From positions 2,376,501 through 2,440,500 of the forward strand of contig CP136571.1 in assembly GCA_035192965.1 (NCBI GenBank): DNA of 64,000 bases, written 5' to 3'. The position numbers were made by a program, and so were the translations under genes. Below the pieces are notes generated by a model, which did no database searches, was not told where the DNA came from, and saw only the letters and a program-made list of their open reading frames with translations. Shown one piece after another: positions 28,966-33,694 of this stretch; positions within the stretch are counted from its first letter, which is position 1, and each line of letters begins with the position of its first letter. The DNA comes from Fuscovulum sp. Its GTDB lineage: Bacteria; Pseudomonadota; Alphaproteobacteria; Rhodobacterales; Rhodobacteraceae.

Positions 28966-29040
28966 GGGCGATTAGCTCAGCGGTAGAGCGCTTCGTTCAC
29001 ATCGAAGATGTCAGCGGTTCAAATCCGTTATCGCCCACCA
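28966..29040 (+). tRNA. tRNA-Val (anticodon CAC)
   Basis: A 75-nt cloverleaf. The acceptor arms GGGCGAT/ATCGCCC pair fully, the D stem is GCTC/GAGC and the anticodon stem is CTTCG/CGAAG with loop TTCACAT, so the anticodon is CAC. The T loop is TTCAAAT and CCA is encoded. It lies 13 bases after the HU-like gene and is followed by a terminator. Confidence 0.97.
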
Positions 29041-29050
29041 TCATTCAAAC

Positions 29051-29083
29051 AAAACGCCCCGGGATTGCCCGGGGCGTTTTGCT
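29051..29083 (+). terminator. Terminator after tRNA-Val(CAC)
   Basis: AAAACGCCCCGGG and CCCGGGGCGTTTT form a perfect 13-bp stem with an ATTG loop, then GCTTT. Because of its symmetry it can also end the leftward gene whose stop is at 29151. Confidence 0.85.
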
Positions 29084-29150
29084 TTGTGGCCGTGCAAAGC
29101 CGGTATCGCGGATGCAGGCCGGGTGACCCCGCACCTGCATCGCGCGCTGT

Positions 29151-31484
29151 TCAGACCGCCCGATGAAAGCTCAACGACTTCAGGCAAAAGGTGATCGGCG
29201 CTTCGATCGACGGGATGCCCAGGCTTTTGGGTGACCGGCAATTCCGCGCCTGAAAGACAATCTCCACCGGTGTTTCAATGTCTTCGGCAGCAAGGGGAAT
29301 ACTCACCGCGACCTCGTCCGTCTCGCCCTTGGCCCATTCCACCTCGGTCACCGGGCCGCCATTGACGCTGATCCCAATCGCCTGCGGACGCAGAAAGTCG
29401 GCATGGTTGAACGGGCGCAGCTGCAGATTGGCAACCAGATTGCCCCCATTCGGCGTCAGCACATGCGTGCGCAGCCGGGAAAACTTGGCCGTCCCCCATA
29501 TCCCTTCTGCCCCACCATGCCCAAGATCAAGGAATGAGAAATGGCGCCGATGCTTGCTATCCTCGAACTGCGGGAAGGAAACCGTCGTCCCCAGCGCCAC
29601 GCCCGATGCACCCAACCGCAGAACTTCCTCTTTCGGAAAGCTGTCCACATAGCTCTGGAACTCGAACTTGGGCAGCGGCATGGGTTCGGCCCGCAAGGCG
29701 TCTTCCAGATTGTCGAACCGCTTCACCGCGAACCGCCCGGTGCCATAGTAGTAATCATAGTATTTCAGGTCATCCTCGCCGCCCACGGGCGCAAGCCAGC
29801 AGGCCGGAATGCCAAGACTTTCTGCAAAGATCAGACCGTGCAGCGAACTCGATACCACCCGGTCCGCACCGATCATCGCATCAATCATTTGCAGCGGCGT
29901 GCAATCCACCGAAATGAAATGCTGCACATGACGGTAATGCTTGCGCCGCAGCACCATGTCATCGCGGTAATGCGGAATGATCCGATATCCGCCCTTCTTC
30001 GCGCCTTCGCGTGCTCGGGCGACGTGATCGGCAAACAGATGCGGGATCAGACAGCCCGGATCGAACAGGTGATTGACCTTGGAAATGTCGATCCCATGCC
30101 GGCGCACCATATCCAGCGTCAATGGCCCGCGCACCGCATGGACGCTCAATTCCTTCACACTTTCATTCAGCATCATCTTGGTCCCCTTCATCCCGGACCC
30201 CCAGATGATGTCGCCCTGCGATGCCGTGTGGATGACCGACCCGATGGAAATCAGCTTGCGCTGCCCGCCCGTGACCGGCTCTGTCGGGCGTCCCAGCAGC
30301 GCCTCGACGATATCCCTGCTCGCGATATCGCCGAAATTCCCGATCTTGAACTTGCGGTTTCCGATGCTGCCATCGAACTTCTTGCCAATGCAATCCCACC
30401 ACATCAGCGGGATGGGGGTGGTCGCGCGTGCCGCCGCATAGTCGCTGTCCTGCGGCACAGGTGTCGGCTGCATCACACGCGACAACTTGGCCACGGCAAA
30501 CCCGCCATCGACCGGTTCCAGCACGGCTTCGACGGCGGCGGTCGGCACCACCGCGATGGCGCAGGATTCATCATTGATCCCGTATGAGATCACCAGATCG
30601 CTGCCCGCCACCACCATGCCGCAGGGATAGACGACCTCGGCCACCTCCCCATTCAGCCGCGGCATGTCAAAGGTCTCGCCCTTCGGATTGGGAAGTTCGA
30701 AGGGTTGCGCGGTGGCTGCGGCTACGCGGAAGGGCAGGCCGGCGGAAAAGCTGTAGAAGCATGCGCAATAGATGCGCCCTGCCGTCGATTTGAAACTGGA
30801 ATGCGCCAGCGTCACAAACCGGTCACCGATCCGCACCGGCTGCGCGCTGCCCCGCAACACCCCGTAAAAGGATTCATACTCGGTCTGCCACCCGGCCAGC
30901 GAAACGAACCGTCCATCCAGCCGATCCGGTTGATCCAGATCGAATTCCAGCACCGAAAACGGCGCGATGGAATAGGTCGCATAGACCGCGCCGTCGTGGT
31001 CAAACAACATCCAGTTCTTTTCGACCTCGCGGCGTGGCGTGCAATTCATCACACGCGCCTTGCCGGCCGGAAGCAGACCGCCCGCATCCATCTCCATCAG
31101 GAACTGGTTGTTGCCCGGCCGGTTCGCCCCATCGTTCCACGACAGGAAAAGTCGCCCCTTCAATGTGAAATAGCGCGGATCGGCATGCCAGGTCAGCGCC
31201 CGTTCGTTCAGGCTGTCCTCTTCGGCAAAGCGCAGATGGTCCGAAAGGGGGGTGATGCTGTCGGGAAGGATATTGAAATCCGCATCCAGCTTGCAGGTGG
31301 CCAGCCAGCGATGGGCCGATCCGTCCTGCACCACGCGATAACACATCGCATAGCCGCCTTCGACGGCGGTGATCGTCGGGTTGAACACCCGGAACCGTTC
31401 ACCGTGTTTCGCGTCGCTCTCCGAAAGCCACGTCTGCGGCACCAGATCACGATTTTCAAACAGCTTGAAACCAGCCTCACTCAT
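29151..31484 (-). CDS. GH130-like beta-propeller fused to polysaccharide pyruvyl transferase domain
   Basis: A 777-residue cytoplasmic fusion. Residues about 25-345 read as a five-bladed propeller related to GH130 glycoside phosphorylases: VFNPTITAVEGGYAMCYR, HADPRYFTLKGRLFLSW, EKNWMLFDHDGAVYATYSI, YPCGMVVAGSDLVISYG. Residues about 380-610 are a polysaccharide pyruvyl transferase (PF04230) domain: KIGNFGDIASRDIVEAL, IIWGSGMKGTK, VHAVRGPLTLDMVRRH, VVSSSLHGLIFAESLGIPA. The last 140 residues look like a beta-sandwich. A role in decorating or trimming an exported glycan is inferred. The start at 31484 (GGGA eight bases upstream) is preferred; ATG 31529 or GTG 31589 would add up to 35 residues. 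It is divergent from a second PF04230 fusion. No signal peptide. Confidence 0.75.
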   Translation of the reverse strand: MSEAGFKLFENRDLVPQTWLSESDAKHGERFRVFNPTITAVEGGYAMCYRVVQDGSAHRWLATCKLDADFNILPDSITPLSDHLRFAEEDSLNERALTWHADPRYFTLKGRLFLSWNDGANRPGNNQFLMEMDAGGLLPAGKARVMNCTPRREVEKNWMLFDHDGAVYATYSIAPFSVLEFDLDQPDRLDGRFVSLAGWQTEYESFYGVLRGSAQPVRIGDRFVTLAHSSFKSTAGRIYCACFYSFSAGLPFRVAAATAQPFELPNPKGETFDMPRLNGEVAEVVYPCGMVVAGSDLVISYGINDESCAIAVVPTAAVEAVLEPVDGGFAVAKLSRVMQPTPVPQDSDYAAARATTPIPLMWWDCIGKKFDGSIGNRKFKIGNFGDIASRDIVEALLGRPTEPVTGGQRKLISIGSVIHTASQGDIIWGSGMKGTKMMLNESVKELSVHAVRGPLTLDMVRRHGIDISKVNHLFDPGCLIPHLFADHVARAREGAKKGGYRIIPHYRDDMVLRRKHYRHVQHFISVDCTPLQMIDAMIGADRVVSSSLHGLIFAESLGIPACWLAPVGGEDDLKYYDYYYGTGRFAVKRFDNLEDALRAEPMPLPKFEFQSYVDSFPKEEVLRLGASGVALGTTVSFPQFEDSKHRRHFSFLDLGHGGAEGIWGTAKFSRLRTHVLTPNGGNLVANLQLRPFNHADFLRPQAIGISVNGGPVTEVEWAKGETDEVAVSIPLAAEDIETPVEIVFQARNCRSPKSLGIPSIEAPITFCLKSLSFHRAV

Positions 31485-31630
31485 ACACGTCGTCCCACTA
31501 ACACCAACCACCGATTGGTGGTGCCGCATCGCCTTTTTGGAAGCAAGCCGCTTTTGCCTGTCCAGGCTGAATTTTCTCGACAGTCCCACGGGCAGGCCCT
31601 AAGAAAACCCGTGCTAAATGTGGTGTTGCC

Positions 31631-33523
31631 GTGTCATCAGTGCCGACTGTCGTCAGCTTCTATTCAGGGGCAGAGTATTATCATCGGGCGGCTGCCGCGC
31701 TGATTGAAGATTGCGTTCGTCTGGGCCTGCGCCACGATATCGTCCATCTCGAAAAACCGGACGAGCTGGAATGGTCCGATATTTGCCGCCTGAAAATCCC
31801 GTTCTATGAATACATGCTGGACAAGCACCCGAAGGGCATTCTCTGGGTGGATGTCGACACGCGCATCCTGCGGCCGCCGCTGCATGTGTTCGGCCCCGCC
31901 CCGGTCGCAAGCGCGGGGCTCGGCTACGATTTCGGCGCGTTCCCGCGCAATTTCAAAAGCTTCCGCGAATTTGACCCCGCCCTCTTTGGCCGCCGCTTCC
32001 ACCCCGGCTTTCTGCATTTCACCGGCACGAAACGCTGCCGGGCCTTCGTCGATCATCTGGCCATGCTGGAGCGAACCTCCACCATCAATGGCACCGACGA
32101 CTATTTCCTTGAAGAAGCGTTCCGCTCCTTTGAGCCGGGCCTTGGCATCCATCTCTTCAGCCACGATCTCGTGTCCTTTTCGCAGGATGAGGCCGATCGC
32201 AACACGCGCGCCGTCTTCCTGCATGGGGCCAGCGGTAATGTCGGGGCCTTTGTCGACAAGGTCGAACAGCACCATGCCGAAGCCTTCACCCTCGGGCGCG
32301 ACCGCGCCACGCTGATCCGGCACTTTCGGCTCGCCGTCAAACGCGCACGCCGCGACGAGGCCGAGGCGATCCTGCGCGCGGCCCTGCGGCTGGACCCCGC
32401 CCACAAGGACACGGCGCTGATTGCGGCGGATTTCTTCCTGCGCGTGAACAAGCCGAAATCAACGCTGCAATGCCTGCGCAGCGCTTTCGATATGCGCGAC
32501 GGACCGCCCGAAGCGCAGGTGCTGGCGATCGAGGCCAATCTCGCCGATGAGAACTTTCCGGCAGCGGGTCTGGGTTTGCGCAGGCTCGCCCGGTCCGGCA
32601 GCCATGCCGATTATCACCGCAGTCGCAGCTTCCGCCTTGATCTGGAAAAGCGCGCGCTGGCGATGGGGCTGACCCCGGATCAACGCCCCGCATTGTGGTG
32701 GATGGAACAACCCTATCCCGGCAATTTGGGCGATATCCTGAACCCCTATATCGTGGAAAAACTCAGCGGCCTTCCCCCCCGTTTCGTGCCAAAGGGCGAT
32801 GGCATCCTTGCCATCGGTTCGGTCATCAAATTCGCCCGCGAAGGCACGCAGGTCTGGGGTTCCGGCACACCCCGCATGACCGATACACTGTCGGCCCAGG
32901 CCCAATATCATGCGGTCCGCGGCCCGCTGACGCGCCAGCTTGTGCTGCAAAGCGGCGGCGAAGCGCCCGAAATCTATGGCGATCCGGCGATGCTCCTGCC
33001 GCTCATCCGGCCCGCCGCGCGCAAACGCCATCGGCTGGGGATCATCCGGCACTACACGCATAAGGCGCACCCGCTGGAGATATCGGGCGATGTCATCGAA
33101 ATCGGGCTGGATCGGATCGGCTATCGCGACATCGAGGATTTCATTGCTGCCCTGACCAGCTGTTCAGCGATCATCTCCACCTCGCTGCATGGTCTGGTCG
33201 TGGCCCATGCCTATGGCATCCCCACGCGCCGCGCCGTGTTCAGCAGTTCCGACACCCAGATCCCGGGTGATGGCACCAAATTCTCGGATCACTACGCCGC
33301 CTTCGGCATAACCGAGGCGGAGCCGCTCGACCTCTCCCTTCATCCCACCCTCACCGATGCCAGCGCCGATCTGTGCTGCGAGATCGTCACCCGCCCGCTT
33401 CAAGCTCTGGCCCTGCTCGACGCGGCCCCGTTTCCCGTGCTGGATACGATGCGCCAAAAGGCGCTGGACTGGGACCGGGGGCAGGGCGAGCGGCCAGAGC
33501 CCGCGCTGGAAGGCCGGGGCTAA
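31631..33523 (+). CDS. GT-A glycosyltransferase fused to polysaccharide pyruvyl transferase domain
   Basis: A 630-residue cytoplasmic fusion starting at GTG. Residues 5-230 resemble a GT-A nucleotide-sugar transferase: VVSFYSGAEYYHRAA, KIPFYEYMLDKHPKGILWVDVDTRIL with DVD as the DxD metal motif, and GTDDYFLEEAF. Residues about 235-330 are helical repeats of TPR character (AEAILRAALRLDPAHKDTAL). From about residue 350 comes a PF04230 domain: PGNLGDILNPYIVEKL, AIGSVIKF, VWGSGTPRM, YHAVRGPLTRQLVL, ISTSLHGLVVAHAYGIP. It would couple sugar transfer to pyruvyl-type modification of a surface polysaccharide. An in-frame GTG at 31640 is an alternative start; neither has a strong ribosome site. It is divergent from the other PF04230 gene. 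Confidence 0.75.
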   Translation: MSSVPTVVSFYSGAEYYHRAAAALIEDCVRLGLRHDIVHLEKPDELEWSDICRLKIPFYEYMLDKHPKGILWVDVDTRILRPPLHVFGPAPVASAGLGYDFGAFPRNFKSFREFDPALFGRRFHPGFLHFTGTKRCRAFVDHLAMLERTSTINGTDDYFLEEAFRSFEPGLGIHLFSHDLVSFSQDEADRNTRAVFLHGASGNVGAFVDKVEQHHAEAFTLGRDRATLIRHFRLAVKRARRDEAEAILRAALRLDPAHKDTALIAADFFLRVNKPKSTLQCLRSAFDMRDGPPEAQVLAIEANLADENFPAAGLGLRRLARSGSHADYHRSRSFRLDLEKRALAMGLTPDQRPALWWMEQPYPGNLGDILNPYIVEKLSGLPPRFVPKGDGILAIGSVIKFAREGTQVWGSGTPRMTDTLSAQAQYHAVRGPLTRQLVLQSGGEAPEIYGDPAMLLPLIRPAARKRHRLGIIRHYTHKAHPLEISGDVIEIGLDRIGYRDIEDFIAALTSCSAIISTSLHGLVVAHAYGIPTRRAVFSSSDTQIPGDGTKFSDHYAAFGITEAEPLDLSLHPTLTDASADLCCEIVTRPLQALALLDAAPFPVLDTMRQKALDWDRGQGERPEPALEGRG

Positions 33524-33572
33524 GACGCCACTCTGTCGCGCTTCGCCCTTGGCGGGGGCCGCTTCTGGGCCC

Positions 33573-33600
33573 TTGACCCGCCTGCGAAAACGCCTAAAAG
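33573..33600 (+). promoter_or_regulatory. Promoter of tRNA-Val(TAC)
   Basis: TTGACC (33573-33578) and TAAAAG (33595-33600) are spaced by 16 bases and end 18 bases before the mature tRNA 5' end. Confidence 0.5.
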
Positions 33601-33618
33601 CGCGCAAGTGGCGTGCCG

Positions 33619-33694
33619 GGGTGGTTAGCTCAGTTGGTAGAGCGTCTCGTTTACACCGAGAATGTCGGGGGTTCGAGTCCCTCACCACCCACCA
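33619..33694 (+). tRNA. tRNA-Val (anticodon TAC)
   Basis: A 76-nt cloverleaf with acceptor GGGTGGT/ACCACCC, D stem GCTC/GAGC, anticodon stem TCTCG/CGAGA with loop TTTACAC (anticodon TAC), T loop TTCGAGT and encoded CCA. It closes the interval of the two PF04230 fusion genes; the other end is tRNA-Val(CAC). Confidence 0.97.

Follow-up and report, generated by a model that had tools for sequence, protein, structure and literature searches.

Two divergent pyruvyltransferase fusion genes between tRNA-Val genes: a likely mobile add-on for a bacterial surface glycan

The closest described counterpart of the locus reported here is the wbbY/wbbZ pair of Klebsiella pneumoniae O1, two divergent genes that are unlinked to the main O-antigen locus, were apparently acquired laterally and have also been found on a phage genome, and whose products extend and pyruvylate an ABC-exported glycan (PMC10629545). 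In the polysaccharide pyruvyl transferase family PF04230 the conserved motifs, named for WbbZ, are NxGD, RxxxT/S and a His (PMC10629545), and the residues of the PEP site in CsaB are R148, R306, H308 and K328 (PMC10435577). For the GH130 propellers, N74, R89, D142 and D363 of BT3780 serve as the active-site reference (PMC4599007), and the mannosyltransferase-phosphorylases of Leishmania, family GT108, have been reviewed (PMC8950772). Here, we describe a two-gene cassette from a stretch of DNA of 64,000 nucleotides, referred to as the window; the cassette looks like a mobile add-on changing the sugar coat of the bacterial surface.

The 4,578 bp between the two tRNA-Val genes are filled by two long divergent open reading frames, P1 and P2 (Table 1), both of which match PF04230 above the cut-off of 25.3 bits (48.4 and 47.9 bits, respectively). 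The arrangement foreseen in the original prediction, two back-to-back PF04230 fusions between tRNA-Val(CAC) and tRNA-Val(TAC), is borne out by ARAGORN, the reading frames and these scores. The RGPLT motif and the SLH of the S-x-SLHG motif named at the same time are also present in both proteins: NxGD, RxxxS/T (as RGPLT), the His of SLH and the Lys following it are intact in each domain, and on these sequence features both domains belong to the polysaccharide pyruvyl transferase family. A motif-based alignment gives counterparts in P1 and P2 for R148, H308 and K328 of CsaB, and places a Ser at the position of R306 in P1, P2 and most of their PF04230 subgroup. Translation of P1 from a GTG at 31589 would yield a product of 812 aa, but the ATG at 31484 is the likelier start since relatives begin near there.

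Table 1. Features of the cassette, with positions in the window
Feature	Position	Strand	Basis or remark
tRNA-Val(CAC), left border	28966..29040	+	ARAGORN
P1 gene, 777 aa	29151..31484	-	ORF, homologues, dN/dS
P1 residues 660-777, predicted all-beta C-terminal domain	29151..29507	-	model, homologue identity
P1 residues 355-635, PF04230 with N383xGD, R452GPLT, S547LH549, K574	29580..30422	-	Pfam, motifs
P1 residues 1-330, five-bladed GH130-like propeller, EKNW clade	30495..31484	-	profile, PDB profile match, AF2 fold, motifs
Divergent intergenic region, 146 bp	31485..31630	.	putative promoter region
P2 gene, 630 aa	31631..33523	+	ORF
P2 residues 1-215, putative GT-A glycosyltransferase, invariant D74-V-D76, D156-D157	31631..32275	+	motif, sub-threshold matches
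P2 residues 225-345, TPR-like helices	32303..32665	+	weak TPR; TPR matches in G1007 homologue
P2 residues 350-605, PF04230 with N365xGD, R430GPLT, S518LH520, K550	32678..33445	+	Pfam, motifs
tRNA-Val(TAC), right border	33619..33694	+	ARAGORN

The same tRNA-Val pair was surveyed in 13 congeneric species having both genes within the fetched stretch. In ten of them the two genes lie 99-180 bp apart, so that the pair is adjacent without the cassette in relatives, a point that the original prediction had proposed to check, and in the other three the gap holds 1.3-2.4 kb of different DNA. The gap is therefore read as an insertion hotspot and the cassette as an insertion. Another two-gene cargo fills this gap in two congeners (L065, 4960-7236; L068, 1163-3584), consisting of a protein of 485-546 aa and a gene of the CesT/Tir-chaperone family (PF05932, 47-50 bits), and is type III secretion-like. 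An island of the integrase type was rejected, given that the insert between the tRNA-Val genes has no integrase gene and that no direct repeats of at least 10 bp common to its two ends were found.

Comparison of two strains of the host species (the window and L041) showed about 95-99% identical DNA for P2 and most of the flanks, whereas P1 alone is 87.5% identical, with a drop that starts and stops close to the ends of the gene. The dS values are 0.49 for P1 and 0.075 for P2, and the corresponding dN/dS values are 0.105 and 0.038. These low ratios, together with full-length homologues in other taxa, indicate that P1 and P2 are real, functional genes. Positive selection on P1 was rejected since dN/dS is 0.1 and the extra divergence is found in synonymous sites too. 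This excess in synonymous sites suggests that P1 was replaced by a divergent allele, exchanged through recombination. Replacement by divergent alleles is known to happen in surface-glycan genes.

The P1 fusion was found in the host species and one other (G1007) among 367 sampled alphaproteobacterial genomes, and in two genomes of the Microbacterium group. The full-length identity of these homologues is about 42-45%, made up of 44-50% in the propeller, 52-54% in the pyruvyltransferase and 20-24% in the C-terminal domain, which is thus poorly conserved outside the species. The C-terminal 118 residues are predicted to be all-beta at modest pLDDT, and the beta-sandwich originally proposed for them is plausible, although not proven. 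The architecture of P2 is more widespread and recurs in Polaromonas, Paracoccus, G1007, the Microbacterium group, where both genomes carry P1 and P2 homologues together, and a viral contig. On that contig (IMG/VR, L078:2389-4323) the P2-like gene is 42% identical and lies beside endolysin-/lysis- and tail-like genes; it is possibly a phage gene that alters the surface. No relatives of P1 were found in viral contigs, and a viral origin of P1 was rejected on this account. The suggestion that the cassette is possibly undescribed can be kept for P1, since no description of a propeller-pyruvyltransferase fusion was found in the literature searched; the recurring P2 architecture is not unusual.

Homologues of P1 and P2 sit in ABC-transporter capsule loci. 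In G1007, an alphaproteobacterium of another family, homologues of P1 (42%) and P2 (43%) are encoded in a single locus alongside WcbI, a double PF04230 protein, an ABC-2 permease with its ATPase and a protein that by eye is KpsE-like. In Polaromonas, a plasmid region that encodes a P2 homologue (46%) and another PF04230 protein also contains a GDP-mannose synthesis gene and genes for an ABC exporter and for chain-length and export proteins. The host itself has a Kps-type ABC-transporter capsule locus at 1,016-1,037 kb, 1.38 Mb from the cassette, comprising an ABC ATPase, an ABC-2 permease, a Poly_export/SLBB protein, two GT4 and three PF04230 domains. Its double-PF04230 protein shares 50% identity with the one in G1007, and the gene occurs in two of 19 genomes of the genus, the same two that have the cassette; because both genomes are of one species this co-occurrence counts as one event. 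Besides the double-PF04230 protein, the locus (L126, L127) encodes one with a single PF04230 domain, an aminotransferase of class I/II (oxoamine-synthase-like) and a 2,513-aa protein that looks PKS-like by eye, possibly reflecting a modification of the lipid type. It follows that the claimed lack of any other glycan or transport gene holds between the tRNA genes but not genome-wide, and the idea of a self-contained two-gene system is not supported in view of the capsule-locus homologues and of the host locus elsewhere. From these homologues and the co-occurrence, action of P1 and P2 in trans on the capsule of the host locus is the simplest reading.

It could alternatively be hypothesized that the same enzymes act on another glycan, such as an LPS O-chain, an exopolysaccharide or a protein glycan, and possibly alter phage receptors. 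Such a role would agree with the lack of linkage between the insertion and any glycan locus, with the presence of PF04230 relatives in phages and with the P2 homologue that lies beside lysis and tail genes. We nevertheless regard it as unlikely, because G1007 and Polaromonas have homologues linked to ABC capsule exporters and because the cassette co-occurs with the double-pyruvyltransferase capsule gene of the host.

The GH130 profile PF04041 scores 25.2 bits against full-length P1 and 29.1 bits against the propeller alone, the latter above the cut-off of 26, and a profile built from six propeller sequences matches GH130 structures in the PDB, the best being 9fj8, a beta-1,2-oligomannan phosphorylase (E 7.6e-10). 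The AF2 model of P1 has a mean pLDDT of 65, higher in the propeller, and the structural comparison of residues 1-335 gave VIA Z scores that reach 25.0 for GH130 phosphorylases (5ay9, rmsd 3.4, 304 residues), 18-19 for the Leishmania GDP-Man mannosyltransferases of GT108 (best 19.2) and about 17 for GH43 enzymes. According to this model the N-terminus of P1 has the five-bladed GH130 propeller fold, in agreement with the propeller first proposed.

The residues N35, R50, D102, E155-K-N-W158, Y171, P175, Y239, G289 and D305 are shared without exception by 11 proteins of three phyla, here called the EKNW clade. The N, R and D and the Asp of YGxxD align with GH130 positions, with a spacing that fits the BT3780 residues given above, and the catalytic Asp (D102) is kept throughout the alignment. 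Where the GH130 phosphorylases compared carry the phosphate-site motif HR(P), P1 and the majority of EKNW proteins have YS (sequence alignment, partly by eye). A conserved Glu pair, of the kind acting as base in the GH130_NC hydrolases, was not seen in the EKNW alignment, with equivalence judged by sequence. An equation of K156 with the beta-1,2-specific K199 of BT3780 was dropped because the lysine of K[DN] is common to all GH130 proteins compared. The fungal BMT profile PF12141 gave E 0.049 and 0.057 (12.7 and 12.5 bits, with a cut-off of 28.3) in two distant EKNW members, in both cases with EKNW 8 residues into the match, and no match in P1 itself. We know of no characterised EKNW protein.

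Stand-alone EKNW genes adjoin PF04230 genes in G171 (98 bp), G775 (17 bp), G770 and a Simkania MAG; that of G775 is located downstream of a Wzx flippase and that of G770 within a Wzx cluster. In G478 (L093:2415-9604) two proteins of 1.2 kaa join the EKNW propeller to GT2, TPR, FkbM or GT32-like/methyltransferase domains. EKNW and PF04230 genes both belong to glycan clusters, which accounts for part of their association. In the Simkania MAG (L043) and in G979 (L122; a 1.5-Mb alphaproteobacterium), both of reduced-genome lineages, EKNW- or QKNW-type propellers have signal-peptide-like N-termini (in Simkania by eye), as does the Simkania PF04230 protein (by eye). These N-termini are puzzling since PEP should not be available outside the cytoplasm, and those seen by eye in Simkania are hard to reconcile with a role in the cytoplasm and with PEP there.

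The P1 propeller may be a hydrolase or phosphorylase of an unusual kind, as the modelled fold matches GH130 (Z 25) better than GT108 (Z 19). Its nearest solved structures come from GH130 phosphorylases and hydrolases and the catalytic Asp is retained, so that a degradative or remodelling enzyme of beta-mannosides, fused for editing or recycling of a pyruvylated glycan, can be envisaged. This is improbable considering the change of HR(P) to YS, the lack of an evident signal peptide in P1 and P2 (by eye) and the neighbours of the EKNW relatives, among which flippases, exporters, glycosyltransferases and pyruvyltransferases were seen and neither sugar importers nor genes of catabolism. The proposal that the cassette trims or reads a glycan is not supported, given the absent HR(P) and the propeller relatives that share assembly clusters with Wzx flippases or exporters. 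It is quite improbable, too, that the propeller is a module without catalysis that binds the glycan and holds the polymer in position for the pyruvyltransferase: propellers often bind ligands and the phosphorylase motif HR(P) is lost, but all 11 proteins keep N35, R50, D102 and D305, which align with active-site residues of GH130, and pure binding would not need the catalytic Asp. By analogy, we infer that the propeller is a biosynthetic, perhaps beta-mannosyl, transferase. The use of a glycoside-hydrolase-like propeller for synthesis is, to our knowledge, established mainly for Leishmania GT108. The widespread EKNW propellers would then be probable sugar transferases in capsule or exopolysaccharide assembly, repeatedly tied to pyruvylation, and the annotation of such proteins as glycosidases is likely misleading.

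Residues 1-220 of P2 have no significant family match, a PDB sequence search with the N-terminal domain returned nothing usable and the predicted model of P2 has a pLDDT of 47. The D-V-D motif is invariant across eight P2 relatives, and single relatives give sub-threshold matches to GT8 (E 0.019) and Nucleotid_trans (E 0.045). The original prediction of a GT-A transferase plus helical repeats is consistent with these results: the domain is probably a GT-A glycosyltransferase, which the motif and the matches fit without proof, and the repeats correspond to a weak TPR match.

We favour, with reasonable though limited confidence, the explanation that the cassette is a horizontally acquired add-on placed between two tRNA-Val genes, and that cytoplasmic P1 and P2 extend and pyruvylate an ABC-exported capsule in trans. 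Both proteins would build or decorate a surface polysaccharide exported by the Kps-type pathway encoded elsewhere. The propeller of P1 would transfer a sugar, which by analogy would be mannose in beta linkage or a sugar of manno configuration, its PF04230 domain would place a pyruvate ketal from PEP onto the growing glycan and its C-terminal beta domain may hold the glycan. The GT-A-like domain of P2 would add another sugar, to be pyruvylated by its own PF04230 domain, and the TPR-like helices that separate the two domains would act as spacer or docking surface. The domains, the predicted propeller fold, the motif conservation, the purifying selection, the insertion, the homologues in capsule loci and the host capsule locus are the observations from which we infer both transferase activities, the sugar, the acceptor and the action in trans. 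More speculatively, one may ask whether the EKNW propellers constitute a bacterial family of beta-propeller glycosyltransferases and P1 and P2 an assembly line, in which each sugar-adding domain has its own pyruvyltransferase and the capsule is pyruvylated in each repeat; this extension is tentative and rather doubtful.

Like the GH130 beta-mannoside phosphorylases and hydrolases (PMC4599007), the EKNW clade has a five-bladed propeller, the catalytic Asp and the Asn, Arg and YGxxD positions. It differs in having EKNW...YS where the GH130 phosphorylases compared have K[DN]...HRP, and in being fused or adjacent to biosynthetic enzymes. Leishmania GT108 shares the propeller fold and provides an earlier case of a GH130-like propeller that uses GDP-mannose (PDB titles), but its structural score is lower than that of GH130 and there is no significant sequence match. 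We know of no fusion of GT108 to pyruvyltransferases, and a literature search for GT108 or GT91 together with GH130 found nothing. Like CsaB, Pvg1p and WbbZ, P1 and P2 keep NxGD, RxxxT, the His and a later Lys near the position of K328 in CsaB; unlike in CsaB, the Arg of R306-x-H308 is Ser and the domain is fused to others. The cassette as a whole appears to be an alphaproteobacterial parallel to the add-on locus of Klebsiella O1. As in wbbY/wbbZ, its two genes are divergent, have no linkage to the main glycan locus and include a pyruvyltransferase. Whereas WbbY has two glycosyltransferase modules and WbbZ is a lone pyruvyltransferase, P1 and P2 are each PF04230 fusions, P1 with a GH130-like propeller and P2 with a GT-A-like domain and TPR-like helices.
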